A DNA stretch of 64,000 nt from Butyricimonas sp. Marseille-P3923 (GTDB taxonomy: Bacteria; Bacteroidota; Bacteroidia; Bacteroidales; Marinifilaceae). Position 1 is the first letter of the stretch, and the number at the start of each line of letters is the position of its first letter. The notes below the pieces were generated by a model. The model had not been told where the DNA came from. It made no database searches and saw nothing but the letters and a program-made list of their open reading frames with translations. The stretch lies in the NCBI RefSeq assembly GCF_900184685.1, contig NZ_FXXL01000006.1, positions 186,001 to 250,000 of the forward strand. Direction: 5' to 3'. Made by a program: the position numbers and the translations under genes. Below, in pieces: positions 17,084 through 48,025 of the stretch.

Positions 17084-17890
17084 ATGGACAACGCAATAGA
17101 AATAGAAAACCTTCAATGTGGCTACAACCATAAATTCACGATACGGGATATTTCGTTCACCGTGGAACGGGGTAAATTGACTTCCATTATCGGTCCCAAC
17201 GGGGCGGGCAAAACAACTTTATTCCGAGCCATCACCGGCATGCTACCCGTGCAACAAGGCTCTATCCGGATAAACGGCACGGACGCATTCCGCATGACGC
17301 ATAAAGCAAGGGCAAAACAACTTGCCATTGTCAACCAAACCGTGGAAGCGGATTTTATCTCTATCGAGGACTACGTTCTCATGGGATGCCTCCCCTACCA
17401 CGCCCCGCTACAACTTTTCGAGAGCAAGGAGGACTACGTCATTGCCGAAAAGAATATGCGATTAACAGGTATATGGGAAAAACGTGCAAAACTCATGAAC
17501 CAACTTAGCGGTGGCGAACAACAACTGGCAGCCATTGCCCGGGCTCTCACCCAACAAACGGAGATTCTCCTGCTTGACGAACCCACTTCCCATCTGGACA
17601 TATCCCACCAGATGCGAATACTGAATCTCGTGCAACGCTTGAACCGGGAACAAAACCTTACCGTGTTGCTTATCATTCACGACCTGAACCTTGCCAGCGA
17701 ATTCAGCGACCGACTGATTATGCTCAAAGAAGGAAGTATCCACTCGAGCGGCACCCCGGAAGAAGTATTGACTTACGACAATATCGAAAGCGTCTACGAC
17801 ACGCTGGTTATTACTCAAAGTAACCCTCTTTCGGGTAAACCCTGCGTATTCCCCGTGTCGGATAAACATCACTTCATAAATACAAAATAA
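17084..17890 (+). CDS. btuD: ABC transporter ATPase, probable BtuD
   Basis: The 268-residue ATPase has Walker A GPNGAGKTT (37-45), signature LSGGE (141-145), Walker B ILLLDEP (161-167) and the switch His in IIHD. It powers the adjacent FecCD-type permease. Its last 22 nt overlap the convergent DUF486 fragment, so the element's insertion did not damage it. Confidence 0.82.
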   Translation: MDNAIEIENLQCGYNHKFTIRDISFTVERGKLTSIIGPNGAGKTTLFRAITGMLPVQQGSIRINGTDAFRMTHKARAKQLAIVNQTVEADFISIEDYVLMGCLPYHAPLQLFESKEDYVIAEKNMRLTGIWEKRAKLMNQLSGGEQQLAAIARALTQQTEILLLDEPTSHLDISHQMRILNLVQRLNREQNLTVLLIIHDLNLASEFSDRLIMLKEGSIHSSGTPEEVLTYDNIESVYDTLVITQSNPLSGKPCVFPVSDKHHFINTK

Positions 17891-18093
17891 ACAGCAAGTA
17901 CAAGACAGACGCAAGCCGCCAGATGATTCCATTGGAACGTCACTCCCTTGAAGAAGACCATGGAAAAAATAATAAAGATGGTCAAAGTGATCACTTCTTG
18001 AACGACCTTCAACTGCATTAACGAGAAAGGTCCCCCGTTCCCAATGAATCCCAGACGATTGGCTGGTACTTGCGCACAATATTCAAATAACAT
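17869..18093 (-). pseudogene. 3' part of the host DUF486 gene (split by the element, left side)
   Basis: Codons after the junction encode CAQVPANRLGFIGNGGPFSL and continue to AVYFVFMK, the C-terminal 69 residues of a DUF486 small membrane protein. The first five codons (MLFEY) come from the element end. Joining to the fragment at 47870-48025 at the shared Tyr codon restores 122 residues in frame, the same length as the intact element-borne copy at 47416-47784. This is direct sequence evidence of insertion. Confidence 0.88.
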
Positions 18094-18106
18094 TTCGAAT
18101 TAACCC
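18071..18106 (+). other. attL: host/element junction
   Basis: Host sequence TTGCGCACA is followed by ATA and then the element sequence TTCAAATAAC, with TTCGAATTAACCC at 18094-18106. The inner part is mirrored at the right end (GGGTTA...TTnCGAA), as expected for two half-sites of a serine-integrase attP. Confidence 0.75.
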
Positions 18107-18124
18107 ATGACAGAAAATATTGAT

Positions 18125-18132
18125 TATCTTTG
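18125..18132 (+). promoter_or_regulatory. Probable -7 box of the serine recombinase promoter
   Basis: TATCTTTG is an exact Bacteroidetes -7 box, 24 nt before the recombinase ATG. A -33 TTTG is not seen at standard spacing. The promoter is inside the element end, so expression does not depend on the host. Confidence 0.5.
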
Positions 18133-18156
18133 TGATATCTATTTAGGAACAAAATT

Positions 18157-19941
18157 ATGAAAAAAGCTATTACTTATATTCGAGTTTCAACTAAAATGCA
18201 AGATGTCGCAAGACAAAGGATGAAAATTCAAGAGTATTGCGCTCGAAACAACTATGAAATTGTTCAAGAAATTGTAGATTACGGAATTTCTGGGGCAAGA
18301 GCTGATCGAGAAGGCTATATTAAGTTACAATCTCTTACAGATAAAGATGGAGAAATATTAGTAATTTCAGAATTATCTCGATTGAGCAGGGAGGAAACAT
18401 TAATTACAGTCAATACAATTCAAAATATTATATATCATGGTTTAGACGTGGTATTTTTAGACGATGCAAGTAAATATTATAAAGCTAATCAAGCTCTGAA
18501 TTTAATAGAACTAATAACCTTACTTGTTAGTGCAGACAAAAATGCAAAAGAAAGAATCGAAATAAAAAGAAAAAATCAAGAAGGCAAACAAGCTATATTA
18601 TCAAATAACCCCTATGCTATGGTTGATGGCAATATACCTTTTGGCTTCCAAGCAATCTATAATCCTAATGGACGTAGACCTAAAAAAATTCTCGAAGAAA
18701 ATGAACAAGAAGTTGAACACATAAAAAAAGTCTATGAATTAATATTATCAGGATATTCACTTGGAGAAGTCGCAAGATACTTCAATAATAGAAATATTAC
18801 ATTTAGAGGATTCTTTGTTACCAGACAATTATTAGGTAGATTAATCAAACATTCTATTTACAAAGGAGTTAGAAAAAGGAAATTAAAATTCGATAGAGAA
18901 GAAGCAAGCGTCATTTCTGTCAATATTAAACCAATAATTACACCAGAAGATTTTGACAGGGCAAATCTTTTGGTAAAAGAAAATCATAAATATAAATCAA
19001 CTGGCAAAAATCTATACAACCCATTAAAAGGAATTTTCAAATGTCGATGTGGACGTTCCATGATTGTAAAGGACAAGAAACCAGAAAAGGCTGTCACCAA
19101 ACTCACATACAGATGTAGTTACGTGGGAACAGAAGACAATCCTATTGCCTGCCATTTCAAGGATGAAATCTCTTATCATCTAACCAATGAAATTATATAT
19201 AGCTTATTCAAATACATGAATTATAGTGAAAATATTGACTTTTTCAAAGGACAGATTGATAACAAAGTACAAAACTTAATTGAAGAGATTGACGGTTTGA
19301 ATAAACAAATCAAAAACAAAGAGTTAATTCGTTCAAACCTAGAAGCAGAAAATCAAGAATTAGTACAAAGCTATTTAGAAGCACGTTCTTCCACATTACG
19401 CACTGCGGTACAAAACAAACAAATCGAAATAGAAAATAAAATTGAAGCTCTTAAAAAAGAAATGGACAAACTAACTGATGCAAAACTCAGTAAAGAAGCT
19501 GATAAACTAAGATTAATTGACACCAGAAAAAAAGAAAAACTAGATAATCTTAATATTCAGGAAAAAGGAGAATTATTCCACAAACATCTTGCCTCTGTTA
19601 CCTATTACACTGTCACTATGATGCAAGGTTTTTATGTCATTCAATTTAGGAGTGGTTTAGAGTTCATCATTGCTGTTAGAAAAACTGCTAGAAGCCCTCT
19701 AGTTTCTATCTTACCAGATAAATATACGCTAAACAAAGATACCCTTCTAATTACAGAATATAAAGAAACATCTAAAAATACAAGTCTAAAAAATTTCTCC
19801 CTAAACACTACTGTTACAACAAAAGAAATAACTATTCAAGAATATCTAAAAAGTGAAATTGCAGAACTAAGATCATTAAGAATAGACTATTCATATCGAA
19901 AACAGTATAATGAAAACTTAAAAATGAAACGTGAAGAATAA
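18157..19941 (+). CDS. Large serine recombinase (element integrase)
   Basis: The 594-residue protein has an N-terminal resolvase catalytic domain with IRVS (Arg9, nucleophile Ser11) and SELSRLSR (71-78). A recombinase DNA-binding domain (about 155-285, GNIPFGFQ, FRGFFVTRQLLGRLI) follows, then a zinc ribbon with Cys at about 296, 298, 320 and 332, and a long coiled coil (about 365-455). This is the large serine integrase architecture. Its position at the left end of the element, beside attL, makes it the best candidate for the enzyme that inserted the element into the DUF486 gene. Excision may need a separate directionality factor, which is not identified. Confidence 0.95.
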   Translation: MKKAITYIRVSTKMQDVARQRMKIQEYCARNNYEIVQEIVDYGISGARADREGYIKLQSLTDKDGEILVISELSRLSREETLITVNTIQNIIYHGLDVVFLDDASKYYKANQALNLIELITLLVSADKNAKERIEIKRKNQEGKQAILSNNPYAMVDGNIPFGFQAIYNPNGRRPKKILEENEQEVEHIKKVYELILSGYSLGEVARYFNNRNITFRGFFVTRQLLGRLIKHSIYKGVRKRKLKFDREEASVISVNIKPIITPEDFDRANLLVKENHKYKSTGKNLYNPLKGIFKCRCGRSMIVKDKKPEKAVTKLTYRCSYVGTEDNPIACHFKDEISYHLTNEIIYSLFKYMNYSENIDFFKGQIDNKVQNLIEEIDGLNKQIKNKELIRSNLEAENQELVQSYLEARSSTLRTAVQNKQIEIENKIEALKKEMDKLTDAKLSKEADKLRLIDTRKKEKLDNLNIQEKGELFHKHLASVTYYTVTMMQGFYVIQFRSGLEFIIAVRKTARSPLVSILPDKYTLNKDTLLITEYKETSKNTSLKNFSLNTTVTTKEITIQEYLKSEIAELRSLRIDYSYRKQYNENLKMKREE

Positions 19942-20004
19942 ATATAATATACCTATTAAAATTAAAGCCTATCCCCTCTAAATTGAAGGAATAGGCTTTT
20001 TCAA

Positions 20005-20592
20005 TTAGAATGACAAAGATTCATAGGTCTGCGCAACCTCTTCCTGCCTCAATCCAATATACCGTCTTGTGATAGCCAAAGAGGAATGGTTAAACATATC
20101 CATAAGCATAACTAAAGCCCTTTCTGCATTCTCTGGATTCTGGTTGTAAACCTGCCTTCCAAAAGTCTTGCGTAAACTATGACAGGAGAAGTTTTTGACG
20201 TTTACCCTGTACTTAGCCTTTATCTGCTTTAGAATCCTGTTTAGCTGTTGGGTGGAGTAAACGGTTTTCTTCTGGCTTAGAAAGACAGGAGAATTAAGGC
20301 AAACGGGGTTAATGTGGTTATAACAATCTGCAATGAACTTCTTTAGTTGTGGAGAAATGGGAATAGTCCTTTTCTTCTCCGTTTTGTGTTCCGTGATGGT
20401 GATTTCATCCTTATCCAGAATCAACAACCAAGCGAGTTGCTTCATGTCATACACACGTAATCCCCAGAAAGAACCTAGCGTGATAAACAAAGCGATTTTA
20501 TAATTCCCGTCCTGTATTAGTTTTCTAGTTAGATTAAGCATATCAGCCCAATCCAGACGGTCTGCCGTGGTGTTAGAATACTTCAAACTCAT
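20005..20592 (-). CDS. Short tyrosine recombinase (catalytic domain only)
   Basis: The 195-residue protein has all the core residues: Arg46 (GLRVYD), Lys70 or Lys73, His138 and Arg141 (HSLRKTFG), His169 (FNHSS) and Tyr178 (TRRYIG). There is no N-terminal arm or core-binding domain. The frame is open upstream to 20715, but the ATG at 20592 (MSLKYSNTT) matches the usual start of this short Bacteroidetes family. It may drive site-specific inversion or resolution rather than integration. Confidence 0.85.
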   Translation of the reverse strand: MSLKYSNTTADRLDWADMLNLTRKLIQDGNYKIALFITLGSFWGLRVYDMKQLAWLLILDKDEITITEHKTEKKRTIPISPQLKKFIADCYNHINPVCLNSPVFLSQKKTVYSTQQLNRILKQIKAKYRVNVKNFSCHSLRKTFGRQVYNQNPENAERALVMLMDMFNHSSLAITRRYIGLRQEEVAQTYESLSF

Positions 20593-20832
20593 AACGTTCA
20601 AATTTGTAAGATTAAATATGTAAGTGAATATTTTATAGAGCCAGAGAATAGCCCTAAATTGTAAGTAATTGATAATAAGAAAAACGTTCACTAATACAGA
20701 AAGTGAACATTCCACAAATATACAGGGCTTGCTTCTGGTGAAGCAAACCCTGTATACAGAGAATTTAATTTAAACTGTATTAGCAAAATTAATTATTTGC
20801 TTCTTTGCTGACAAGTTTAAATTATATTCTCA

Positions 20833-21261
20833 TTAATTTTTGATATATGCAACCCAAATATTTATTGCAGTAAGTATCAATGATATTACTGAAATTACAA
20901 TGGCAATCCAACTTTTCTTAGCGTTCTTGAGAGTCTGTATTTTCAAGTCCTCTTCTATTTTCTTGTTTGAATGTTTTCTTGTGTAACCTCCATTTTGGAT
21001 ATACTTTATTCCCAAATCTGTTATTTCTGGCAAATCTAAATCTTCTTTCCTTTTAAATTCAATTAATCCATCTGATAATAATCCTCTTTGTAGAAATTCG
21101 GTTTCCCAATCTTCATGCCCTTCTTCTTTAAATAATGTTTTGCAAATGAAGTCCATTGTTAATCTTTTGTCATCTTCTCCATTATTTCTAATCTTGGTAG
21201 AGATACGAGATAATAAACCATATAAGATTTTATCTAATTTTTCATCATGCGTCATAATCAC
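20833..21261 (-). CDS. Small C-terminally membrane-anchored protein paired with the OLD nuclease
   Basis: The 142-residue protein has a soluble N-terminal part that looks like a winged helix (DGLIEFKRKEDLDLPEITDLGIKYI) and one C-terminal membrane helix (SWIAIVISVISLILTAINIW). It starts 2 nt after the OLD-type gene (alternative start 21255), so it is surely co-transcribed. I do not recognise the family. The pairing suggests a membrane-bound regulator or effector for the nuclease. Confidence 0.7.
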   Translation of the reverse strand: MIMTHDEKLDKILYGLLSRISTKIRNNGEDDKRLTMDFICKTLFKEEGHEDWETEFLQRGLLSDGLIEFKRKEDLDLPEITDLGIKYIQNGGYTRKHSNKKIEEDLKIQTLKNAKKSWIAIVISVISLILTAINIWVAYIKN

Positions 21262-21263
21262 TC

Positions 21264-23069
21264 TTATTCATATAGCTCACTTATTTTTTCAAACCAGCCT
21301 TTTATTTCTTCAAAAGCATCTAGTTGTACCAGCATTTCTTTTGTTAATCGTTTTGCTAAACATCCATTTACAATAGACTTAACTTCTCCTTGTTTTAATC
21401 CTGTTTTGGAAGCAAAGAATGTAGGTAGATCTTCGTTATCCCAATCTGAAATGGAATTACAATCTACTGCTTTGAAATATTCACTGTAGATTTCTTTTGG
21501 AATGTAGTTCTCAAGTTCTCTTTTTTTTGTTAATACGGCAAAAGATTTATCTGGACGGCTATTAATCTTCTCTGCTTGTTCTTTGTATTGTTCAGTGTTC
21601 TTTCCTGAACTTGAATCTCTATCATAGATATGGAACTCTATGACATTTGAATCTTTTAGATAATATCTTTCTACCCAATTTTTTAGATTACCTCCTATCA
21701 TGGGAATAATGCTTATCTGTTTTTCTTCTAAATCAATAATAGACTTTAATTCTGGAATATTTTGATTAATATTCTTCAAGAATCTAATATCATACTCTCC
21801 TTCTACGCATACAACGAGTTTTGTTAAGTATGGCATTATTCCTAACGTTTCACGTATATCAGACAATTTATTATTTTCTTCAGAAACGATATTAGGCTTC
21901 CCCAATGAATCTTTTTTGATGAGAATAAGACTCTCATTTTCTGCTATTTTTGCAATCTCTGGGCTGTGAGTGGTAATAATCACTTGTCGGTTTTCGTCAT
22001 TGGCAAGTTTAATTAGCGAATCTATTAATATTTTCTGATATTCTGGATGCTGAGAAGTTTCAGGCTCTTCAAGAGCATATATGACCCCTTTTGAACTTCC
22101 AACTCTTTCTTCAGCCTCTGCTCTAAAATAGTTTAGTAGTATTAATCTTCTAACGCCACTTCCTCTTTTATTTATTGGAATTCCTTCATCACCAGTGAAT
22201 GAGAAGCTAAAAAGAGTATCCCAATTTTTGTTTTTAACGTTAGGATAGAGCGTTTTGGCTATTTCGGGATTCATTTCAGACAGTTTTTCTATTGTTCGCT
22301 TTCCTTTTTCAATGGCTCTCCGTTCTATTTCCTCAACTACGGATTTTAATTGAACTTCAACCTCTGCAATAGCTTGTTTGGTTATAACTTTTAAGGGATC
22401 TTGAACTTCTTTATCTGAATCTCTATTTTGTCTATCTGATTGAAATATGGCAAAATAAGGAAATTCAGAACTTATGCTATCATATATTCTTTTTATATCT
22501 TCTTTGTCTATTGGAATAAGAGTTAATTGTTTTTCTTTATTCTGAATAGAGTTATATATCGCTTTTCTGAAATCTGATAGAACTCTTTTATCTTGAACGT
22601 TTGCATCAAGCCCCTTTGCTGTACATATTTTTTTTAAATCTGTTATTTTCAATGCAACAAGAGGTTCTTCTGAAAATTCTTTTAAATAATTGGCAACGAT
22701 ATAACTCGTTAAACTTTTTGCTGTTAATGACTTCGTGCAATCCCATATTTTTCTTATTTCGAGTAAACCATCTTCATTCAATAAGTATTCCGCTTCCAAT
22801 GATGTTTTTCTTTCTGGATCTATAAGATATTCTTTACTCTTATCAATTTGAAATGCTACACCAATAACAATTCGCGGAACTGCCCCAACCCTTAAATCTT
22901 CTATTTCAATTTTCACTGTTTCATTATTGAAAAAAATTTCAAGAGCCTCTAATATCGTTGATTTACCAACATCATTTTTTCCAATAATAACATTTAGATT
23001 ATTGTTAAATGGAATTGTTATTTTTTCGTATCCACGAAAGTTCTCAAGATATAGTTTCTTTAGAATCAT
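21264..23069 (-). CDS. OLD-family ATP-dependent nuclease (AAA ATPase plus TOPRIM)
   Basis: The 601-residue protein has an SMC/OLD-type ATPase: Walker A GKNDVGKST (30-38), a Walker-B-like ALEEPETSQHPEY segment and the switch TTHSPEIAKIAE. A TOPRIM domain follows: VVCVEGEYDIRFL and IYDRDSSSG supply the metal-binding acids. OLD proteins act in phage defence (P2 Old, GajA of Gabija). No UvrD-like helicase (GajB) follows; instead a small membrane protein does. The ATG at 23069 (MILKKLYLENFRGYE) is preferred over the frame start at 23144. Confidence 0.9.
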   Translation of the reverse strand: MILKKLYLENFRGYEKITIPFNNNLNVIIGKNDVGKSTILEALEIFFNNETVKIEIEDLRVGAVPRIVIGVAFQIDKSKEYLIDPERKTSLEAEYLLNEDGLLEIRKIWDCTKSLTAKSLTSYIVANYLKEFSEEPLVALKITDLKKICTAKGLDANVQDKRVLSDFRKAIYNSIQNKEKQLTLIPIDKEDIKRIYDSISSEFPYFAIFQSDRQNRDSDKEVQDPLKVITKQAIAEVEVQLKSVVEEIERRAIEKGKRTIEKLSEMNPEIAKTLYPNVKNKNWDTLFSFSFTGDEGIPINKRGSGVRRLILLNYFRAEAEERVGSSKGVIYALEEPETSQHPEYQKILIDSLIKLANDENRQVIITTHSPEIAKIAENESLILIKKDSLGKPNIVSEENNKLSDIRETLGIMPYLTKLVVCVEGEYDIRFLKNINQNIPELKSIIDLEEKQISIIPMIGGNLKNWVERYYLKDSNVIEFHIYDRDSSSGKNTEQYKEQAEKINSRPDKSFAVLTKKRELENYIPKEIYSEYFKAVDCNSISDWDNEDLPTFFASKTGLKQGEVKSIVNGCLAKRLTKEMLVQLDAFEEIKGWFEKISELYE

Positions 23070-23382
23070 AATATTATCTTTTGATTGGTGTTTCTGTCTG
23101 AGAAAATGATATAGCAAAAGTAACTCTATTTCTAAAAGTTTCAAACGATTATGGACTTTCTTAATTTGGAAGGTCTGTTTAGATGCTGAATCTTGTCATT
23201 TGCCTTCGATTAGTAGGTTTTTTGTCTTCAAAACGATATAAGTGTGTTCGTTCAGGGAGAAAGAATGTCGTGAAGGTATACCATGGACCAAACCAGAGAG
23301 ATGTCAAAATTCAGAAAATGAATCAAAGTCATAAAACGAGTCATTTGGAGGCTTTACTTTACGTTTTCTTAAATAGAAGTCT

Positions 23383-23655
23383 TTAACTTACGTCCAACAT
23401 CAATTCCTACCCATCAGTTAATCGACAGTTAATATGAAAAGCTAACTCCAGTACCTTTTTATTAACCTGTATTAGCAATGTCTTATTCTTTGGTTCATGT
23501 TTCTTCAGGTTCCACTACTTTTTCCATACATTAATACTAGTAGGAAACTTCGTATCCTTGAAATAACTCCGTACTCTTAGATAGATTGGATATTTACCAT
23601 TTCGCTTTACTGACTTATCAGCTCTTATACATTTGCCAATAGAGTATTCTACCAT
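23383..23655 (-). pseudogene. Decayed N-terminal part of a phage-type tyrosine integrase
   Basis: Reading down from ATG 23655 gives MVEYSIGKCIRADKSVKRNG and then KYPIYLRVRSYFKDTKFPTS, typical of the arm DNA-binding domain of Bacteroidetes integrases. The frame has stops at 23515-23517, 23407-23409 and 23383-23385. It is too short and broken to be expressed. The rest of the gap between 23070 and 23802 shows no other gene I can support. Confidence 0.65.
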
Positions 23656-23802
23656 TATTATAAATAACTTATCTGGCTCGCATGAAACAAGTTAATTGAC
23701 AGTTTGGAGACGACAAAAAAAATCATGTATTTTTTTTCGATGTAGTTTTGTTAGTTGTCTGTAAAAATGTATTTTTATGAAAATTAAAAGCCCGATTTTA
23801 AA

Positions 23803-26597: not shown

Positions 26598-26625
26598 AAT
26601 CATTTATTATTTAAATTGTTAATAC

Positions 26626-37188: not shown

Positions 37189-37195
37189 TAAATTT

Positions 37196-38649: not shown

Positions 38650-40044
38650 ATGAAACATGAAGATATTGTTATAGATAAAAAAAATCCTTTCGCAAATTGT
38701 AAATTGGGCAGAGAGCCTTATGCAAATATTTTGTCATCAATAGTTGATAGCTATGCAAAGGGATTTGTGCTTGCAATTAATGGAGAATGGGGAGTTGGAA
38801 AAACAACCTTCGTAAAAATGTGGATGCAGAAGCTAAAAAATGAAGGACATAAAACCATATACTTCAACGCTTGGGAGAATGACTTTGTTTTAGAACCTAT
38901 GGTTGGTATTTTAGGAGAGTTGAAATCATTAATAACCTCTGATCCAGAGAAGCGTTTTGATTCTATTTTAAAAGGATTCGCAAAGTTCTCCAATAAAATA
39001 ATTCCAGCTTCATTAAAATTTGTTGCAAAAAGTATTGGTTTAGGGGGTATTGCTGATGTGATAGAAAAAGGAGGAGAAGCAATGGCAGCATTTTTTGAAA
39101 ATGAAATAAGCAATTATGACCAAAAAAAGGAAAGTCTCCAATCATTAAGAAATGATCTTTGTAATCTTGTTGCACAAAACAATGGAGGTAAACCTGTTGT
39201 TTTTATTATTGATGAGCTAGATAGATGCAGACCAGATTACGCTGTGGAAGTTCTGGAAAAGGTTAAGCATTTCTTTTCAGTACAAGGAATAATTTTCGTG
39301 TTATCAATAGATAAAAAGCAACTCGGCAACTCTATTAGAGGATTCTATGGTAGTGAAAATATTAATGCAGATGAATATTTAAGAAGATTTATTGATATTG
39401 AATATAGTTTGCCAGAGCCATCTATTAAAGATTTTTGCGAGTACTTGTATGATTATTTTACCCTTAATGAGTTTTTTGAAAATGAGTGGAGGTGTACCTA
39501 TGATACTTTTAAAGATGATAGCCTGTTGTTTAAAAAGATTTCGGTTATATTATCAACAGAAAAACATCTTACTTTAAGAAAAATTGAAAAGTTATTTGCG
39601 TACACTCGTTTGGTGCTAAAAACATTTCGTATAGAAGGATGTGTTCTTCCTGAAGTTGTGTTCATGTTGATTTATTTAAAATACTATGAGAACGACTTAT
39701 ATAATGCTATCAAAAGAAATAAGTTAAATATTCATGATATTGTAAATCAGATCAATTCTATTTTTACTATTTCATTGAAAGATAAAGAACAATATGAGTA
39801 TCGAACTCTTATTTTTGCTATGGCGAAATTGATTTACTGTTACAATAATTCTTATAGAGGTACAGGATATTATCAATCATTATTCTCTAGAGAAAACGAA
39901 GAATTATCTTTTGATACAGGTGAGATTGACAAAAATTTTCTTTATTTGGCATTAGAGCATTGTGACCAAAAATATACTAGATTTGAATTATCTACAAAAT
40001 CATTAATACAGAAAATAGATTTATTAGAATCATTGAAACAATAG
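38650..40044 (+). CDS. KAP-family P-loop NTPase (464 residues)
   Basis: Walker A GEWGVGKTTF (45-54), an early FNAWEND segment and Walker B VVFIIDELDRCRPDYAVEVL define the KAP family. The usual membrane insert between the two motifs is replaced by a mildly hydrophobic stretch (about 115-150, IIPASLKFVAKSIGLGGIAD), so membrane contact is possible. KAP NTPases occur in phage exclusion (F-plasmid PifA) and other defence loci. The gene stands alone on the plus strand among minus-strand genes; its 276-nt upstream gap has no other gene. Confidence 0.88.
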   Translation: MKHEDIVIDKKNPFANCKLGREPYANILSSIVDSYAKGFVLAINGEWGVGKTTFVKMWMQKLKNEGHKTIYFNAWENDFVLEPMVGILGELKSLITSDPEKRFDSILKGFAKFSNKIIPASLKFVAKSIGLGGIADVIEKGGEAMAAFFENEISNYDQKKESLQSLRNDLCNLVAQNNGGKPVVFIIDELDRCRPDYAVEVLEKVKHFFSVQGIIFVLSIDKKQLGNSIRGFYGSENINADEYLRRFIDIEYSLPEPSIKDFCEYLYDYFTLNEFFENEWRCTYDTFKDDSLLFKKISVILSTEKHLTLRKIEKLFAYTRLVLKTFRIEGCVLPEVVFMLIYLKYYENDLYNAIKRNKLNIHDIVNQINSIFTISLKDKEQYEYRTLIFAMAKLIYCYNNSYRGTGYYQSLFSRENEELSFDTGEIDKNFLYLALEHCDQKYTRFELSTKSLIQKIDLLESLKQ

Positions 40045-40061
40045 ATAATCCATATCTATAA

Positions 40062-40997
40062 TTAAAGGTATAATATAGTCTTCTTTACTTCTTTTGGACT
40101 AGAAGCCCTCTCTTTATAACATTTAGTATTTATCAATGAAGTAAGGAAATATTGTAAACTATGTATTTGAGGTGGCAGGTTGGGACACAATTTAGGCAGG
40201 TTACATTTCAATGAATAATAATTATAATGCTTCTTGGCGTTTCTATCTCCATTTCTAACTGCCGTTTCCAGTTCCTCTTCTGGTTGATCGTACCTGTGAA
40301 TACATAGCACTTCCATTAGCTTGAAATCGTATGGAGGGGGGATAACATTCTTCTCTATACAATAGTTATATATAATATCGTATTTCTCTCTGGCTAACTT
40401 GTTAAAAGTTCTCAATCCAAAATTACTTTTAGCATGTGGGGTATCCAGTATGATGTTGTTATCCGTGATAAGGAAGAAATTATTAACTTCCACCAGTTTA
40501 TGATGCTTTACTGCCAAATCTATATATTTCTTTACGGTTTTGGGAGATAAGTTTAATTGCCTAGATATTTCTGTCTTGTTATAGCAAGTGATATTGGTAT
40601 TATTGATACATAAACATTTAAGTAGTACTAGGAAGGCTTTCAATTCATCAGGAATATCTTCCAGTAATAAATCTTTCTTGAACCTGACCCAGTTACTCTT
40701 TGGAATGTCTACATGATATGTAACAGGTGTGGTTAACTGTCCTTCATTGTTCCTGTAATTATACTCTTTACGCAGGAAGCCTAAATCTTCAAATTTGGCG
40801 GTGTACTTGGAAATGGTATCCACGTCCTTTATTCCTGTAACTTCACGAAGTGTTTCCCTCAGTACATGGGATTCACCTGTTTCGTAATCTGATTTAAAAA
40901 GTAACCATGTAAATGTATAAGTTTCATCTAGGTTCAGTTTACCTGCAATATCTCTCGTTATGATTCTATAATCCTTCTTTTCTTCTTCATTTGCCAT
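40062..40997 (-). CDS. Winged-helix protein, possible replication initiator (311 residues)
   Basis: Two winged-helix-like segments are visible: residues about 5-90 (LRETLREVTGIKDVDTISKY) and about 120-175 (NKTEISRQLNLSPKTVKKYI). Such double winged-helix proteins include plasmid Rep proteins. Upstream, 40998-41266 holds two 15-bp near-identical direct repeats. Rep function is an inference; a transcription factor is the alternative. Confidence 0.55.
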   Translation of the reverse strand: MANEEEKKDYRIITRDIAGKLNLDETYTFTWLLFKSDYETGESHVLRETLREVTGIKDVDTISKYTAKFEDLGFLRKEYNYRNNEGQLTTPVTYHVDIPKSNWVRFKKDLLLEDIPDELKAFLVLLKCLCINNTNITCYNKTEISRQLNLSPKTVKKYIDLAVKHHKLVEVNNFFLITDNNIILDTPHAKSNFGLRTFNKLAREKYDIIYNYCIEKNVIPPPYDFKLMEVLCIHRYDQPEEELETAVRNGDRNAKKHYNYYSLKCNLPKLCPNLPPQIHSLQYFLTSLINTKCYKERASSPKEVKKTILYL

Positions 40998-41128
40998 TAT
41001 TAATTCCAGTTTGAAACAACCATCTAAAAATGATCTATGGACTTTCTGGTTCTGCTTTTATCTCGTGGGATAGGCTGGCAAGCCTGTAACACCAGTACTA
41101 GTTATTAGTTAAATAGTTAATAGTATGT

Positions 41129-41167
41129 ACCCTGTCAATTCCCCAAAAGCATACCCCGTCAAATCCC
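41129..41167. repeat. Iteron-like direct repeats upstream of the winged-helix gene
   Basis: ACCCTGTCAATTCCC (41129-41143) and ACCCCGTCAAATCCC (41153-41167) match at 13 of 15 positions with starts 24 bp apart. They could be binding sites for the adjacent winged-helix protein. The rest of 40998-41266 is AT-rich and shows no gene. Confidence 0.4.
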
Positions 41168-41266
41168 TAATTTTTAAATATTAATCTTTATGCGTGGATA
41201 ATCTCTTTATTTCAGGTTGGAATCTCTGGTTACATGAAATACAGTTATATCATGTAGCTTTATAGA

Positions 41267-41458
41267 TTAATCTTTACAGGGTGGTAGTATCTGGATTCTG
41301 GTATTCTCATCTGGAATGTAATATATCTTTCTCACTTTATCTACCTGTTTTTTAATCTTTTTCAGCCCTTTAGACTTTATCCAGAAACCTATGGATACCT
41401 TATTGTCAGGGATACCAGATTGTATGGCTAATCGCCTTAATCGCTCGTAAGTGTACAT
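41267..41458 (-). CDS. Small basic DNA-binding-like protein (63 residues)
   Basis: MYTYERLRRLAIQSGIPDNK has the look of a short helix-turn-helix, followed by the basic KSKGLKKIKKQVDKVRKIYY. Size and charge suit an excisionase or small regulator. It lies upstream of the winged-helix gene on the same strand. Weak call. Confidence 0.5.
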   Translation of the reverse strand: MYTYERLRRLAIQSGIPDNKVSIGFWIKSKGLKKIKKQVDKVRKIYYIPDENTRIQILPPCKD

Positions 41459-41523
41459 GATTTGATAATTTGATTGGTTAGTACGGTGTATCTAGTTTAG
41501 TGCCACTTGAAGACCAAAAATTA

Positions 41524-41552
41524 CTCCTTACAGGTGGACTTGCAAGGAGTAA
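41524..41552. repeat. Hairpin in the gene-free stretch 41459-41755
   Basis: ACTCCTT and AAGGAGT pair around a short loop upstream of the small basic protein. There is no T-run, so a leader hairpin or operator is more likely than a terminator. Nothing else is seen in the 297-nt gap. Confidence 0.4.
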
Positions 41553-41755
41553 CAGGAATCCTTTATATAGTTATTTCAAATGGTATGCTTTGATTATTAA
41601 GATGGTACAAAGATATTTAACATCTGGGATACCGACAAATAGAGTATAGGTATTCTTAAAATATAAAGTAAATAACTATTTAAAGAAAAAATATTTCCCT
41701 CTCACCTTGTTTGCCTGTCAATTTAATATATTAGTAACTTCGATTCTTATTTTAT

Positions 41756-42421
41756 TTAGTAATTCAAATCAATACCCGTTTTATCTTTTACGAATTCGAT
41801 ATATTCTGTCAAGGTTTTTTCCGCATACACTTGGGAGAAAAAATCTAGTACATTATATTTTTTAGCAAGGAATATAATACCAGAATCTTTTTTAATTAAT
41901 TCCTCTTTTGAATTACTCAACATTTCTTCTGTTTGATTTTTTATAAATTCTGAATTATCCCAGATGTTCCTATTTTCTTCTTTAGGCTTTATTTGTAACA
42001 TAAAAATTAGAATAGTTGAAGCTTCCTCTGAAGTAATATAAGAATTAATATTACAAAAATGTTTATCAGAAGATTGAGCTTCAAAATATCCAGTATCGCT
42101 AACTTCAACTATTGATAAATCATATGCCCAAGATTGATTCTCTTGGAAACACTCCTTGTAACCTAAATAAAATTCAAAAATATAGCAATATAAAAAATCC
42201 CATGCCCAAATATTATCCACTTTAAGAGTTCCATAGCTACCACGAACCGAATGGATTGTATCAAAAAAAAGTCTATTGCCTGTTAAGGAGGAGAATTTTA
42301 GTTTGTCTTGCACGAAATGCATGATATCCACAATTCGATGTTGATACTCGTATAATAAACGATGAGCCTTACGTACATCAACTAAAGCCTTTTCCATATC
42401 AGCTTGATTTATTTTTTCCAT
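41756..42421 (-). CDS. Hypothetical partner of the PD-(D/E)XK protein (221 residues)
   Basis: The soluble, mostly helical protein (MEKINQADMEKALVDVRKAH, WAWDFLYCYIFEFYLGYKEC) has no recognised motif. It overlaps the upstream nuclease-like gene by 13 nt, so the two are made together. It could be a toxin, antitoxin or regulator in a two-gene module. Confidence 0.62.
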   Translation of the reverse strand: MEKINQADMEKALVDVRKAHRLLYEYQHRIVDIMHFVQDKLKFSSLTGNRLFFDTIHSVRGSYGTLKVDNIWAWDFLYCYIFEFYLGYKECFQENQSWAYDLSIVEVSDTGYFEAQSSDKHFCNINSYITSEEASTILIFMLQIKPKEENRNIWDNSEFIKNQTEEMLSNSKEELIKKDSGIIFLAKKYNVLDFFSQVYAEKTLTEYIEFVKDKTGIDLNY

Positions 42422-43086
42422 ATTGAAGAATTAAATATTGATATCGAAGATTGATTTATAGATAGATTGTTCTTGTTCAATGTTTCCAACCAAATGATAT
42501 TATGTACTCCAAACATGTTTAAGCCCCAAATGATATTTTCAAGTATTCTGGCATGAGTTCGATCCTGTGTTTCATGATATTCTTGATCTAACGTGAAGAG
42601 TAAAGAATGCCAAGTACATTTGTAAACGCTATAATTTATTGATTGATTATTAAATAATATTGTTCGATCTTTCGGATCAAGATTTGTACAACCTCCTAAA
42701 GCAATAAGAATGATAGGTTTTGAATACCCATGTTCTACACAGAAAGAACATACTTCCTTGTCCCACTGTTCCTCGTACTGCCCACAATAATCACTCATTT
42801 TTGCTTCAATTATCATATCTAATTGATCAAATTGAAAGACTACATCTGGTTCCACGTATCTACTGTTAGTAATACTTTCATCATCAGCACTATATTTAGA
42901 CCAAAACGAATATGAACATAATTCTCCAACATTTTGAGGTGTTTTTATCGCACACGCACGTTTAAGAATCTTGTAAATTGTAAAAGAAGGAAGGTAGATC
43001 AAATTTCCTAAAACTGTCGATGTTTTTAAATCTTCCTTCCATATATTTACATCAGGAAATTTATTATTAAGTAAAGATTGCAACAT
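42409..43086 (-). CDS. PD-(D/E)XK nuclease-like protein (225 residues)
   Basis: EPDVVFQFDQLDMIIEAK (79-96) gives the Asp and Glu-X-Lys of a PD-(D/E)XK active site (Asp81, Glu94, Lys96), with a following Gln-rich helix (YCGQYEEQWDKEVCSF). It resembles anti-phage or restriction-like nucleases that act on DNA. It heads a two-gene unit with 41756-42421. A role in defence is inferred. Confidence 0.7.
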   Translation of the reverse strand: MLQSLLNNKFPDVNIWKEDLKTSTVLGNLIYLPSFTIYKILKRACAIKTPQNVGELCSYSFWSKYSADDESITNSRYVEPDVVFQFDQLDMIIEAKMSDYCGQYEEQWDKEVCSFCVEHGYSKPIILIALGGCTNLDPKDRTILFNNQSINYSVYKCTWHSLLFTLDQEYHETQDRTHARILENIIWGLNMFGVHNIIWLETLNKNNLSINQSSISIFNSSIWKK

Positions 43087-43223
43087 AGATTAAATATTTA
43101 TCAATCATAAGCCAAATATAATCATTTTGTAACACAAAAAAGTCATTGATTAATGGTGATATTTTCAGGAGAATCTTTTTTACTGTGATAAAAATATATT
43201 TTACTTTTAACCAACTAAAAAGA

Positions 43224-44225
43224 ATGATTATGAAAGCAAACGAGATGATTTTAATAGAAACGTTGAAGGATATTGAACCTGCATTAAAAGAATACTTCGC
43301 TTATGACAGGGCGATGTTATACCCTGAAATAGAAAGAATGTATCTAGCAACTCACCCAGCAGGATTACATAACATACAACTAGAAGACAAGTACAGGGTA
43401 GAAGTTCCAAGCACGCTAGATGAACTGGCAACAAGCGATAATCCATTTGATTGGCAACGTTACGCTCCTAGAGAGCAAAAGATGATAAAAGTGGTTGATA
43501 CCTTGGCTTACATGACAGATAACATAAAAGGTATCCTTTTTAAAGATGATGGATTGAAGAAAAAGATAGAGGAATTAGTTGAGGGAAGTAATATCCCAGA
43601 AGAATATCAAGTTGCCATGGTTCACGTCCTCTGGATACTAGCCATTATCTACAAGAAGCATGAAGCGTTCAAACCTATCCTAGACCCAGAATTACTGGAG
43701 CAAAGTTACAACATGGATACCTATTTCCAGCAAGTAAGACCTGAAATGCTACAACTCTACCTGTTCCTTAAGAGGGATAAAAGGAAGAAAGACAAATCAA
43801 TCACTTTAAGTAACAATCAAGAAAAGATCATCATTAACAACGCCATGGAGAGCTGGTTCACCAATCTCCTAGATTCCTACCTACATATATACTTGGGAGT
43901 AAATTCTATTGAAGAAGCGGAAGAAGAATTAAAGGAAGTCTATTCATCAAAGAAAGGACGAAAGGCAGATAACCCTGCACGAAACCTTGTAATAATGGGA
44001 ATATACCGTTTATTAAAAAAACATTCCCAGTTAAAGGATAGCAAAATACATGATTTTATCTACGAGTACATGTGTATAATAGAAGAAGGTGATGTAGTTA
44101 ATGCAACAATAAAATCCGTGATTGAATATTTCAGAAAAGGCGATTACACACCCCAATGGGTTCCCGCATCACAAGGTAATTATAGAATCTCCCCCAATAA
44201 CCCTTCCAAACTTTATTTCTGGTAA
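43224..44225 (+). CDS. Hypothetical helical protein (333 residues)
   Basis: The soluble, helix-rich protein (MIMKANEMILIETLKDIEPA, PRNLVIMGIYRLLKKH-like middle) has a charged central part (KRDKRKKDKSITLSNNQEKI) and an aromatic C-terminus KLYFW. The ATG at 43224 is preferred to the upstream frame start at 43146; 43230 is also possible. The family is not recognised. Confidence 0.6.
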   Translation: MIMKANEMILIETLKDIEPALKEYFAYDRAMLYPEIERMYLATHPAGLHNIQLEDKYRVEVPSTLDELATSDNPFDWQRYAPREQKMIKVVDTLAYMTDNIKGILFKDDGLKKKIEELVEGSNIPEEYQVAMVHVLWILAIIYKKHEAFKPILDPELLEQSYNMDTYFQQVRPEMLQLYLFLKRDKRKKDKSITLSNNQEKIIINNAMESWFTNLLDSYLHIYLGVNSIEEAEEELKEVYSSKKGRKADNPARNLVIMGIYRLLKKHSQLKDSKIHDFIYEYMCIIEEGDVVNATIKSVIEYFRKGDYTPQWVPASQGNYRISPNNPSKLYFW

Positions 44226-44333
44226 CAACACTAGCCGTCATACATTTTTTTCTTGAAAAATTCGCAGAGAATAGTAAAAATACTGGAACTATTTCTCTGC
44301 GAATTTTCATTTATTGCTTCTATAGTTTTGTGT

Positions 44334-44416
44334 CGTCAATCAAGAATGACGGCGCGCACCTCTTCCAAGATTGAGGGTAAGCTCCAGCCCTGTTGGATGC
44401 AAAATGTAGAATCCAT
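44334..44416 (+). ncRNA. Structured leader RNA, copy 1 (upstream of 44429)
   Basis: GTCAATCAAGAA opens a segment that aligns with 45527-45598. A stem TCAATC/GATTGA and a second stem GCTCCA/TGGATGC are present. Compared with copy 2, the outer base pair of the second stem changes from G-C to A-T while pairing is kept. It ends about 13 nt before the ATG. It is likely a cis-acting leader; its ligand or partner is unknown. Confidence 0.55.
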
Positions 44417-44428
44417 AAAAATAACGAC

Positions 44429-44842
44429 ATGGATACCAGAAATATTATTTTAGACGAGAATTGTCTTGCAGTCATAACAGAAGCTAATGTAGTCTTAAGC
44501 TATGCTGCGATAGGGAGATTAGATAACCTTACTTCCTGCATTATTCGGAAGTTTAAAAACTTACCCGTGCAGGAAGCAACTTTTACTATTAACCTCGATA
44601 ATGTATATTTGGATAACACCCCAAACGTCACTCTGCTAGTAGAAAAAATATTTCCAGATGCGATACGACCTTTGGTAAAAAGGAAGTTGTTATGCACTTT
44701 TCCTGATATCGAGTTTAAAGATGTACAAATCTTGATTGTTTCACGAGAAAATATAGATAGCGACGAGGAGGAGCAGGACGGTATGTTCTATGATGTAAAT
44801 CTAGTGATAACAATATCACGTGAAATAATACAAGAGGAATAA
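44429..44842 (+). CDS. Hypothetical protein (137 residues)
   Basis: The soluble protein (MDTRNIILDENCLAVITEAN, VLSYAAIGRLDNLTSCIIRK) ends with an acidic DSDEEEQDG stretch and a beta segment VNLVITISREII. The ATG at 44429 is chosen because sequence upstream, from 44393, is the conserved leader. The family is not recognised. Confidence 0.6.
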   Translation: MDTRNIILDENCLAVITEANVVLSYAAIGRLDNLTSCIIRKFKNLPVQEATFTINLDNVYLDNTPNVTLLVEKIFPDAIRPLVKRKLLCTFPDIEFKDVQILIVSRENIDSDEEEQDGMFYDVNLVITISREIIQEE

Positions 44843-44986
44843 TCTACTGGAAAGATCATCCCGAATTCAATTATCAGGGTTTGGGATGGTCTACATTCAA
44901 CTGAATGCGGGAAATACTAGAAATAAACTTTGGTTAGAATGAAATAGAGAGCTGTTTTATCTACCATTAATTCAATTATTATTTTT

Positions 44987-45322
44987 ATGACAAAAAAAAA
45001 GAAACAATTTGAAATTGAACCAGAGGGGTCTGTTAACAAGATCGTGAAATGTCTTGATTCGTTACCTCCAGAAAAATTATTGGCTGTTTTATTCCAAGCA
45101 TGTTTTCATATGCAGGAAAAAATAGATGATATTCATGACGAGTGTGTTCATGTCGTGAAAACGGCAGGAGAAGAGGAGGTGTGGGACGAGCAAGAATATC
45201 GTTCAAAAATTGACAACCTCCACGCCAAGGCTAAGAGTGTATGGCTTAACGCCTTTGACGGGGGAGGAAGTCCAAAACATCTCGGGAATAACCTGTTTGA
45301 AGAATTAAACCTTCAAGTATGA
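44987..45322 (+). CDS. Hypothetical protein (111 residues)
   Basis: It has a basic start (MTKKKKQFEIEPEG), then helices (CLDSLPPEKLLAVLFQACFH, EEEVWDEQEYRSKIDNLHAK). There is no motif or signal. It lies between the two leader-RNA genes. A hairpin GAAGTTCTTGG/CCAAGAACTTC (45329-45362) follows without a T-run. Confidence 0.55.
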   Translation: MTKKKKQFEIEPEGSVNKIVKCLDSLPPEKLLAVLFQACFHMQEKIDDIHDECVHVVKTAGEEEVWDEQEYRSKIDNLHAKAKSVWLNAFDGGGSPKHLGNNLFEELNLQV

Positions 45323-45526
45323 TAGAATGAAGTTCTTGGTTTGGTTATGAGCCAAGAACTTCTAAAACCCGTGTTATCAATTTTCCAAATAAACCTGTTG
45401 CAAGAATTTTTTAGTGAAAACTATTGAAGCCCATGATTCATTTTTTTGACTTTCCCAAAATTGGATATTTCAATTTTAATATTTATTGGCTTTCTGTCTT
45501 TGAATTTGTAAGTTGCATTTTTGCAT

Positions 45527-45598
45527 TGTCAATCAAGAACAACGGTGATCACTTCTTTAGATTGAGAACAAACTCCAACCCAGTTGGAAGTGAAATAT
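45527..45598 (+). ncRNA. Structured leader RNA, copy 2 (upstream of the ParB-like gene)
   Basis: It aligns over about 70 nt with 44334-44416: GTCAATCAAGAA, then CACTTCTTTAGATTGAG, then ACTCCAACCCAGTTGGAAGT. Stems TCAATC/GATTGA and ACTCCA/TGGAAGT form, with a compensatory change against copy 1. It ends about 20 nt before the ATG. Confidence 0.55.
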
Positions 45599-45617
45599 TA
45601 ATTTTAAAATAGATTTT

Positions 45618-46517
45618 ATGAAAGAGTGTGTTTTAACTAAAAAGGGTATTATTACCCTAGCAGCCTTAAAGGCTACAGGTAAAAAGATTGCTTTTATTAA
45701 AGGTAATCGTCAGGTACAAGAGAAGAACGTAAACGCTAAACGGGCTTCTTTAAAAGAGAACGGTCAAATTATCCCTGCCGTTATTGTAGACGGTGAAGAG
45801 GTACAATCCGTAGATTTGGAAATCGTGGATGCAGAAACGGGGACACCTGTTGCACTAGAAGATCACGAGAAATATGTAGTCATACTGGATGGGCAGCACA
45901 GGTACACTGCCTACATCCAGAACGGTGACAAGAACAAGGGAGAGTTCTATTTCATGTACCCGTTAAACGAGGGGATAACCCTCCAAAAAATCTTGTCAGA
46001 GGCGAATATCGCTACCAAAATGTGGGACGGCAAGGACTTTGCCAGTGGTGCTTTAATGATGAACCCAGATAAAAAGTTGCCCCTTCTGAAGGCAATAGTT
46101 GAATTGCTTAATCAAGGTTTCCCGTTAGCCACTGTACAAAAATGGCTATGCTTTAAAAACGCAGGTATTAACAAAGAGGTTCTGGCAAAAGCCATGAACG
46201 GTAAGATTGACGAAAAACTCCTGAAAACTCCTTACTTGGAGAAAGGGAAACGACTTTTGGAAGCAGCCCAGAAATCATTTAACAATGACTTTTTAGGGAA
46301 ACGGTATCTGGTTGACTTCTTAATTGAGAAGTATGAAGATGCAGACGACGAGAACAAAGCTGAAACGATGCAACAGCTAGTAGAGTTCCTCGTGGGAATT
46401 GACAGGAGTAAGGTAGACGAGATAGAGAAAGCCAAAGGTCAAAAAGGTGTAATAGCCAAGGAGCAGGTAATTTTAAACAAACTGAATGAGTTGTATAACT
46501 CCAAATTCGGTGCTTAG
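45618..46517 (+). CDS. ParB/sulfiredoxin-like N-terminal domain protein (299 residues)
   Basis: A ParB-like fold at the N-terminus (KNVNAKRASLKENGQIIPAV) is followed by the signature ILDGQHRYTAYI (89-100). The C-terminal half is helical (FNNDFLGKRYLVDFLIEKYE) and acidic. ParB-like domains bind DNA or cut nucleotides; many are on mobile elements. A leader RNA precedes it. It is not a chromosome partition protein by context. Confidence 0.8.
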   Translation: MKECVLTKKGIITLAALKATGKKIAFIKGNRQVQEKNVNAKRASLKENGQIIPAVIVDGEEVQSVDLEIVDAETGTPVALEDHEKYVVILDGQHRYTAYIQNGDKNKGEFYFMYPLNEGITLQKILSEANIATKMWDGKDFASGALMMNPDKKLPLLKAIVELLNQGFPLATVQKWLCFKNAGINKEVLAKAMNGKIDEKLLKTPYLEKGKRLLEAAQKSFNNDFLGKRYLVDFLIEKYEDADDENKAETMQQLVEFLVGIDRSKVDEIEKAKGQKGVIAKEQVILNKLNELYNSKFGA

Positions 46518-46535
46518 GAATTGAAATGTAAATAC

Positions 46536-46560
46536 CGGAGGAAGCCTTTGGCTTCCTCCG
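46536..46560. terminator. Hairpin after the ParB-like gene
   Basis: CGGAGGAAGCC (46536-46546) and GGCTTCCTCCG (46550-46560) form a perfect 11-bp stem with a TTT loop. The plus strand has AAAA after it rather than T, so termination is likely but not typical. Confidence 0.5.
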
Positions 46561-46589
46561 AAAACACTTCCTTCAAAAATAAATAAGAT

Positions 46590-47315
46590 ATGCAAAAGAC
46601 GAGTATTAGTTGGACTGAAAAGACTTGGAACCCAGTAACGGGATGCACTCCAGTATCAAGGGGATGTATGAATTGTTATGCCGCAGCAATGGCAAACCGT
46701 TTTCGTGGCAGACAGGGAAAATATAAAAACGGTTTCAAGGTTACTTTACATGAAGATTCCTTGGATGAACCTTTACATGAATTGAAATCATGCAGGATAT
46801 TCGTGTGTTCAATGGGTGATTCATTTCATGAAGACGTATCTTTTGAATTTGTGGATAAGATAATGGAAACAATTAATAGAACACCTTGGCACAAATACCT
46901 AATGTTAACCAAAAGACCAGAAAGAATGGCAGAGTATTTTCAAACTCGTGAAGTTCCCCAGAATGCATGGTTAGGAACAACGGTAGAGGCGGCAGAGTAT
47001 AAATACCGTGTTGATATATTGAGGTCAATAAAGGGTTCTTTTAAATTCCTGTCCTGTGAACCTCTTGTAGAGAATCTGGGAGAACTGGATTTGACAGGTA
47101 TTGATTGGGTAATAGTAGGTGGTGAGAGTGGTAGTAGGGCAAGACCCATGAAAGAGGAATGGGTAATGAACATCAAGGCTCAGGCAGAAGTACAAGGTGT
47201 GGCTTTCTTTTTCAAGCAATGGGGAACATGGGGTAGTGACGGGGTGAAGCGAAGCAAAGAAGCAAACGGACATCTTTTAAATGGTAAGGTATACCAAAAG
47301 ATACCTGATAAATAA
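46590..47315 (+). CDS. DUF5131 (phage Gp37/Gp68) family protein (241 residues)
   Basis: It starts with ISWTEKTWNPVTGC and has Cys19, Cys26 and Cys29 (CTPVSRGCMNCYA), the cluster-like motif of the family, followed by MLTKRPERM and VIVGGESGSRARP. These proteins are common on phages and islands; a radical-SAM-like fold is suspected, the reaction is not established. It lies with a ParB-like gene upstream, a frequent phage arrangement. Confidence 0.87.
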   Translation: MQKTSISWTEKTWNPVTGCTPVSRGCMNCYAAAMANRFRGRQGKYKNGFKVTLHEDSLDEPLHELKSCRIFVCSMGDSFHEDVSFEFVDKIMETINRTPWHKYLMLTKRPERMAEYFQTREVPQNAWLGTTVEAAEYKYRVDILRSIKGSFKFLSCEPLVENLGELDLTGIDWVIVGGESGSRARPMKEEWVMNIKAQAEVQGVAFFFKQWGTWGSDGVKRSKEANGHLLNGKVYQKIPDK

Positions 47316-47337
47316 GAATATAATACATTTACATGGA

Positions 47338-47370
47338 TAAACCAGTTACTCGTTACGGGTAGCTGGTTTA
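47338..47370. terminator. Bidirectional terminator between DUF5131 and DUF486
   Basis: TAAACCAGTTAC (47338-47349) and GGGTAGCTGGTTTA (47357-47370) form a stem with AT ends, followed by TTATTTT. It sits between convergent genes (DUF5131 on plus, DUF486 on minus). Confidence 0.7.
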
Positions 47371-47415
47371 TTATTTTGACTATTCACAAAATATATGTGT
47401 ATATATAACAATTCA

Positions 47416-47784
47416 TTATTTCAGAAATACAAAATACACAGCTAATACCAAACATACTGCTGCCGCTAAATGATTCCACTTCAATGTTTCCCCTTGAAAA
47501 AAGACCATTGTAAAAATAGCAAAAATAATAAGGGTTATCACCTCTTGAATAACTTTAAGCTGCAAAAGCGTAAATGGTCCTCCATTTCCCTGAAAACCAA
47601 TGCGATTAGCTGGAATTTGACATGAATACTCAAAAAATGCCGTCATCCACGATATTAAAATTACTCCAATTAATGGCCAATTATTAATAATCTTCATTTC
47701 CTGCAATTTCAAATGACCGTACCAAGCAAAAGTCATGAAAACATTGGAAACTATAAGTAATAATATCGTATATAATCCTTTCAT
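47416..47784 (-). CDS. Element-borne intact DUF486 membrane protein (122 residues)
   Basis: Four predicted helices are present; the protein starts MKGLYTILLLIVSNVFMTFA and ends AVYFVFLK. It has the same length as, and is clearly homologous to, the reconstructed host gene split by the insertion (53 + 69 residues). It is placed just inside the right end, on the same strand as the host gene. It therefore probably replaces the lost function. The DUF486 family has an unknown biochemical role. Confidence 0.9.
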   Translation of the reverse strand: MKGLYTILLLIVSNVFMTFAWYGHLKLQEMKIINNWPLIGVILISWMTAFFEYSCQIPANRIGFQGNGGPFTLLQLKVIQEVITLIIFAIFTMVFFQGETLKWNHLAAAVCLVLAVYFVFLK

Positions 47785-47849
47785 ATATTATTCATTATAA
47801 GAAATTTAACATTAAATATTTTTTTAAATTTTCCGCCCAATTTGTCAGG

Positions 47850-47880
47850 GGTTATTACGAATTTTTATACTCGAAAAGAG
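47850..47880. other. attR: element/host junction
   Basis: The element sequence GGTTATTACGAATTTTT is followed by ATA (47867-47869) and then the host sequence CTCGAAAAGAG. The element part mirrors the left end (GGGTTA-n-TTnCGAA). Removing the element rejoins the DUF486 frame at the Tyr codon TAT (minus strand). Confidence 0.75.
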
Positions 47881-48025
47881 CGATACACCATGAAAAGAGG
47901 ATAACACCGAAAAGCGGCCAGTTATCTATCCACTTCATTTCCTGTAGCTTCAAGTGTCCATACCAAGCAAATGTCATAAAAATATTCGAGACAATCAATA
48001 ATAATATCGCATAAAGTCCTTGCAT
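47870..48025 (-). pseudogene. 5' part of the host DUF486 gene (split by the element, right side)
   Basis: The ATG at 48025 opens MQGLYAILLLIVSNIFMTFA and reads to CIALFEY at the junction, then runs into element sequence (KNS, stop). This is the first 53 residues of a 122-residue protein; the remaining 69 are at 17869-18078. The original promoter remains here, divergent from the AAA gene. Confidence 0.88.

Follow-up and report, generated by a model that had tools for sequence, protein, structure and literature searches.

Several kinds of mobile elements that integrate within genes or at their ends have been described. The passages of PMC5704250 that deal with integrative and mobilizable elements (IMEs) carrying serine recombinases describe internal cuts in rumA, Maff2-related genes and traG, and treat the disrupted genes as dispensable. 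Many large serine recombinases (LSRs) use one conserved site, according to the relevant part of PMC10083194. Islands at tRNA and tmRNA genes restore the gene end, bifidoprophages at dnaJ2 reconstruct its 3' end, and gin in gerE is a gene-intervening element removed in development, as described in passages of PMC4383910, PMC6109161 and PMC5595907, respectively. The locus considered here lies in a 64,000-nucleotide stretch of the Butyricimonas sp. Marseille-P3923 genome (contig NZ_FXXL01000006.1, positions 186,001 to 250,000; the window), in which a mobile element of 29.8 kb with an LSR splits a gene for a DUF486 (PF04342) membrane protein and carries an intact homologue of that gene. No description of DUF486 as an attachment site, or of an LSR element with a full copy of its target, was found in open-access full texts, other wording and subscription papers aside; the passages of PMC7054086 and PMC11968277 concern DUF4866/DUF4867 only.

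The split DUF486 gene and its intact homologue

The window genome (G000, 5.3 Mb) has been compared with other genomes of the same genus (G006-G010). Its only DUF486 matches are the two halves of the host gene and the intact copy. The locus comprises, in order, the C-terminal half of the host gene (69 codons), the LSR at the left end of the element, the intact copy at the right end, and the N-terminal half (53 codons) (Table 1). The copy sits 86 bp inside the right end of the element, on the same strand as the host gene. These codon counts bear out the first-pass annotation of this DNA, which had noted that halves of 53 and 69 residues add up to 122, the length of the intact homologue. The G+C content is 33% between the halves and 43-46% in the flanks. 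The protein at the left end contains the Resolvase catalytic and Recombinase domains by which it is assigned to the LSRs, with a zinc ribbon match below the cut-off.

G006-G009, the four genomes of the genus that lack the element, each contain a single uninterrupted DUF486 gene, as that annotation had expected. When the window halves are aligned to these genes, 2-9 bases lie between the aligned ends. The single site, the short shared core and the empty site in relatives identify an insertion and, together with the LSR domains and the two halves, confirm the proposed splitting of a DUF486 gene by a serine-integrase element. The host halves show hardly any amino-acid decay. The genes to the right of the insertion align in all four genomes. 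On the other hand, ~1.8 kb immediately left of the gene (to 15909) aligns in none of them; nothing near aligns further left in G006, and G008 has ~2.4 kb extra upstream of the gene.

A second carrier is the Butyricimonas genome G010, in which the element is split over two contigs and spans the gap between them, and in which the genes left of the insertion do align with the window. Nucleotide identity between the two carriers reaches 99.0% for the LSR, 97.3% for a neighbouring tyrosine-recombinase-like gene and 98.1% for the copy, compared with 80-85% for the chromosomal flanks. Similarly, synonymous divergence is 0.08 in the copy, and 1.7 and 2.05 in the N- and C-terminal host halves. A nearly identical module between diverged flanks indicates that the integration module moved recently and separately into each species. 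Other aligning stretches of the elements range from 83 to 98% identity, which points to a mosaic interior.

An independent case has been found in another family. The genome G272 contains a C-half, an LSR, ~18 kb of other cargo, an intact copy and an N-half, in the same order and orientation as in the window, and an empty site for its element is present in G352 of the same genus. The G272 and window LSRs are 40-42% identical and the DUF486 copies 72%. In an all-against-all comparison of the open reading frames (ORFs) of at least 60 aa (E 1e-5), only the LSR and the DUF486 copy were common to both elements, and this is the main reason for assigning the copy to the integration module. The three-part arrangement is more than chance, since it recurs in G010 and, with a different LSR, in G272.

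Among 56 family genomes screened by sequence, more than one DUF486 match was found in two, the window genome and G010. The corresponding number is five for 393 genomes of the order, comprising the window genome, G272 and three genomes rejected as element splits (G144, G155 and G260), which have adjacent broken pieces or, in G144, a duplication. Across 395 genomes of the class, two matches each occur in six genomes other than the window genome (G520, G645, G722, G790, G809 and G810); these were also rejected, all being neighbouring fragments of the gene except for a tandem pair in G809. The survey draws overlap, single-match genomes were assessed among the matches listed, and the screen would overlook a split of which only one half was detected. 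Wherever the halves are far separated (G000, G010 and G272), the intact copy lies at the same end and in the same orientation (3/3). The small sample and the contig gap spanned by the G010 element might raise the suspicion of an assembly artefact, or of a duplication in one lineage after which the native gene decayed, but the probability of either is close to negligible given three assemblies with matching attachment (att) arms, native empty sites and hardly decayed halves.

The anatomy, the empty sites, the recurrence with two LSRs in two families and the conservation of the copy are established directly. We consider it likely that they reflect break-and-replace by an integration module carrying a DUF486 copy. 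The element would integrate at the GA in the codon for the invariant Glu52 of DUF486, by LSR-mediated recombination of attP with attB. The module would include a complete DUF486 gene, located at the far end from the LSR and so oriented that insertion places it immediately downstream of the host promoter and the truncated N-half. By taking over the function of the broken gene, the copy would make a conserved mid-gene site usable without depriving the host. The first-pass annotation had proposed that the element repairs the gene that it breaks. Replacement of the gene is supported by the recurrence, the placement and the purifying selection described below, and from these we infer the functional rescue.

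The probable crossover site and its apparent repeated use

The crossover has been read by hand from the attL and attR junctions set against native genes. A crossover at GA, the two bases that open the Glu52 codon, best fits the junctions, as this placement requires no extra mutation; the cut had earlier been assigned to the Tyr codon, one codon further on. With this placement, the attP half-sites of both element types make up an imperfect inverted repeat (GGGTTA ... TAACCCC) with GA at its centre. The G272 junctions share ten bases, so several crossover points fit, and the TA of the Tyr codon is a less likely alternative. Glu52 and Tyr53 are invariant across 12 aligned proteins. Judging from hydropathy, the cut probably falls between the second and third hydrophobic stretch and so parts the membrane stretches into two pairs; no solved structure related to DUF486 was found by sequence.

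The N-half terminates in FEY-KNS-stop, while the C-half acquires an element-encoded in-frame ATG (MLFEYCAQ...) in the window and G010. This ATG is absent in G272, and the C-half fragment is therefore probably unimportant. The element does not restore a gene end, as attR ends in KNS-stop and attL adds only MLF, and a whole separate copy is present instead. Nor does it leave the target gene intact in the manner of a staphylococcal cassette chromosome (SCC), since the host DUF486 is split.

The copy reads EYSCQ where the host gene reads EYCAQ, as had been correctly noted, but the suggestion that this divergence spares the copy as a second attachment site is not supported. The GA core is kept, and the 30-bp arms of the copy (60-67% identical to those of the host) are only slightly less host-like than the remaining gene (65-74%). 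In addition, a cargo-type copy appears to have been cut at the same junction in G010. There, an array on contig C13 (3612-5633 of L054) consists of the host C-half, an attP arm, a HigB/HigA-like pair, a cargo-type C-half at the same codon, a second arm and the LSR, and the other contig carries the intact copy and a single host-type N-half. The cargo-type C-half begins exactly at the junction, from which the cutting of such a copy follows, and its right arm is 87% identical to that of the window copy. The 26-base attP arm has one site in G000 and two in G010, and no other among the 56 family genomes (at most 3 mismatches).

In the simplest reading, an earlier copy-bearing element would have inserted in G010, its copy (perhaps fused with the host N-half) would then have been targeted by the present element, and a fresh copy would have arrived. 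The matching N-half of the presumed earlier copy is not there. The two DUF486 C-halves of the array flank the HigB/HigA-like pair, and two attP arms but only one LSR are seen; the array is possibly a minimal element (arm, toxin-antitoxin pair and DUF486 copy) moved in trans. The cargo-type C-half that starts at the same junction beside the present element could also mean that the copy is a landing site for further elements in a cassette-chromosome-like array. This is quite improbable, as it is a single case in which the cut copy was again replaced, which looks more like a consequence of the copy than its purpose.

More speculatively, these may be natural break-and-rescue elements in which the LSR and its target gene form a module with repeated gene uptake from different donors, the host is made dependent, and the host gene is turned over by repeated rounds of insertion in which the earlier copy is cut and excision is partial. 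We regard this as possible rather than probable; the turnover is suggested by the G010 array, which runs from the host C-half through the HigBA-like pair, the cargo-type C-half, the LSR element and the new copy to the host N-half. Chimeric host genes have also been considered as scars of past elements. The DUF486 genes of G047 and G042 (one genus) have a mosaic appearance, with N- and C-halves that resemble different relatives, possibly through recombination around mid-gene. In a max-chi-square scan of gene triples drawn from 45 genes, chi-square exceeded 18 in 81 triples, with cuts mainly at codons 10-19, 30-49 and 100-119 and none at codons 50-59, and the mosaics were not used as evidence.

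Conservation, origin and possible expression of the copy

The window and G010 copies differ by 6 synonymous and 1 nonsynonymous changes. Between the window copy and G045, 81% of synonymous and 6.5% of nonsynonymous sites differ, and between the copies and the host genes the protein is conserved and silent sites are saturated. These patterns indicate purifying selection on the copies. The G+C content at third codon positions (GC3) is 0.29-0.36 across the three element-borne copies (window, G010, G272) together with the C-half of the cut cargo-type copy in G010 (0.30-0.36 for the intact copies alone), compared with 0.46-0.66 in the six host genes listed, suggesting long residence in AT-rich elements.

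In the tree, genes from two further genera of the family (g13 and a single g4 genome) cluster with the window copy, and the G272 copy falls into a different part, where its placement is weakly supported. The approximately unbiased test speaks against a single clade of all four copies (p-AU 0.03, 69 columns), and the module therefore probably took up its DUF486 gene more than once. One clade of the window, G010 and cut G010 copies is acceptable (p-AU 0.16, 69 columns). Copies from different lineages would also suit an ordinary cargo gene, useful to the element itself and sharing its target by coincidence or as a by-product. This is very improbable, since the copy is the only gene besides the LSR in common with the G272 element, its position and orientation are alike, and few phage records contain DUF486: 4 of 50,697 match, one of which (MT839793) looks bacterial by its ORFs. 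Scans of viral contigs for the LSRs, for the copy (close relatives only) and for the att arm gave no match. The best LSR matches in phages and plasmids have 26-27% identity over part of the protein, and the two gut plasmid records with DUF486 that were inspected are both chromosome-like.

The copy starts 70 bp after the KNS-stop of the N-half on the same strand, and no terminator-like site was found between them on that strand. TAnnTTTG is the promoter consensus of Bacteroides. This box is present in the G272 spacer, and a version with one difference occurs in the window and G010. Transcription of the copy may start from the host promoter, from one of its own, or from both.

Several observations weigh against break-and-replace. 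Promoter-like sites near the copy are at chance level (5 found, 5.8 expected). A low G+C content alone is a weak argument, as that of the intact gene in G144, which lies on an AT-rich contig, is 29%. Only two independent element types have been found. A DUF486 match is present in only 206 of the 393 genomes of the order, and the gene is broken in several, so that losing it may cost little and its rescue may be worth little. Finally, an LSR profile search of these genomes (E 1e-40) matched four, and in two of them (G133 and G175) the LSR adjoins other genes. No second close copy of the neighbouring gene was seen at either, the missing start of amt not having been searched for, and the replacement copy is therefore not a property of the whole LSR group. 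In G133 (contig C2, L092 8447-11403), the LSR lies at the start of a gene that seems to lack its first residues, presumably an ammonium transporter-like amt, and the contig ends soon after. In G175 (contig C21, L093 6699-10365), the LSR adjoins a gene next to two others; judging by their sequences, the three are probably PgeF/YfiH-like, encapsulin-like and ferritin-like.

The copy could also act mainly to stabilise the element, as loss other than by exact excision would leave the cell without DUF486. We judge such an addiction unlikely, although it predicts the same anatomy as rescue and the two are indistinguishable here. The sole intact DUF486 found is element-borne in all three carriers and the G010 array contains a HigB/HigA-like pair, but exact LSR excision would restore the native gene, and 187 of the 393 genomes of the order have no DUF486 match.

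Cargo and comparison with described systems

The features of the element are collected in Table 1, where the DUF5131 gene also counts among the candidates for defence; further interior genes encode DUF3871 and RadC proteins. No relaxase or conjugation genes were recognised among 30 ORFs scanned with Pfam, 18 of which had no match. Likewise, no virion structure or packaging genes were found among 30 ORFs (Pfam) or 20 (PHROGs), so that, ORFs without a match aside, the element is not classed as a prophage. The tyrosine-recombinase-like gene adjoins the LSR in two species (window and G010) and is not kept in G272. The G272 cargo includes a ThiF-type E1 enzyme with DUF6791 and a larger E1-JAB-like ORF, named by eye, and may contain a ubiquitin-like defence operon.

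Table 1. Coordinates of the element and the flanking host gene halves in the window.
Feature	Position	Strand	Remarks
Host DUF486 C-terminal half, native; 69 codons + stop after Tyr codon	17869..18082	-	97.1-98.6% aa identity to intact genes of G006-G009
attL crossover dinucleotide GA (gene sense), bases 1-2 of Glu52 codon	18083..18084	-	Probable; placed by hand using seven att junctions and native genes
attP left arm; gives C-half in-frame ATG + LFE	18085..18108	-	26-base arm pattern
Large serine recombinase, 594 aa	18157..19941	+	PF00239, PF07508; aa identity 99% in G010, 40-42% in G272
Short tyrosine-recombinase-like gene, 236 aa	20005..20715	-	PF00589; 97.3% nt identity in G010
AAA/OLD-like ATPase, AriA-like candidate defence gene, cargo	21264..23144	-	AriA profile E 2.6e-65
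KAP NTPase, candidate defence family PDC-S20, cargo	38650..40044	+	-
PDC-M15A/M15B candidate defence pair, cargo	41756..43086	-	-
DUF5131 gene, cargo	46590..47315	+	PF07505; 79% aa identity in G010
Terminator-like hairpin past 3' end of DUF486 copy	47336..47372	+	1 found, 0.5 expected
Intact replacement DUF486 copy, 122 codons	47416..47784	-	PF04342 E 7e-43; GC3 0.30; purifying selection
attP right arm; closes host N-half after KNS	47848..47870	-	Identical in G010
attR crossover dinucleotide GA (gene sense)	47871..47872	-	Inferred by hand
Host DUF486 N-terminal half, native	47873..48025	-	92.5-96.2% aa identity to intact genes of G006-G009

LSRs often use conserved intragenic sites, which is expected to cost the host the gene, and a full replacement would be a simple solution. 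Such a copy would open highly conserved mid-gene sites to mobile elements and may create dependence on the element. A search for a split gene with an intact homologue just inside one end could reveal more such elements, and two LSR/att pairs from Bacteroidales are provided here.

Like the IMEs of PMC5704250, the element has an LSR, an internal site in a conserved gene and a very short shared core; unlike them, it has a replacement copy, of which the passages of that source make no mention, and no recognised relaxase. As with the islands and prophages that restore gene ends, the host would keep the gene function despite integration. The genes icd, prfC and trmE are also sites of such islands and prophages. 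Gene-end-restoring elements are described as carrying only the fragment beyond the crossover, fused to the host part, whereas here a whole second gene is present and neither host part is reused. SCCmec-type cassettes at rlmH/orfX resemble this element in their LSR, single chromosomal site, serial insertions and variable cargo, but SCC leaves the target gene intact at its 3' end and DUF486 is split. The gene-intervening element gin and skin, another element removed in development, are likewise recombinase elements in coding sequence; these restore the gene by excision, at least as the passages on gin describe it, while the present element comes with a second copy. Synthetic Cleave-and-Rescue drives, which are engineered, eukaryotic and nuclease-based, break a resident gene and bring a rescue copy. 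The recoding that guards such a copy against re-cutting is unsupported here, but the break and the putative rescue copy are common to both, making this element a natural parallel to engineered break-and-rescue drives.

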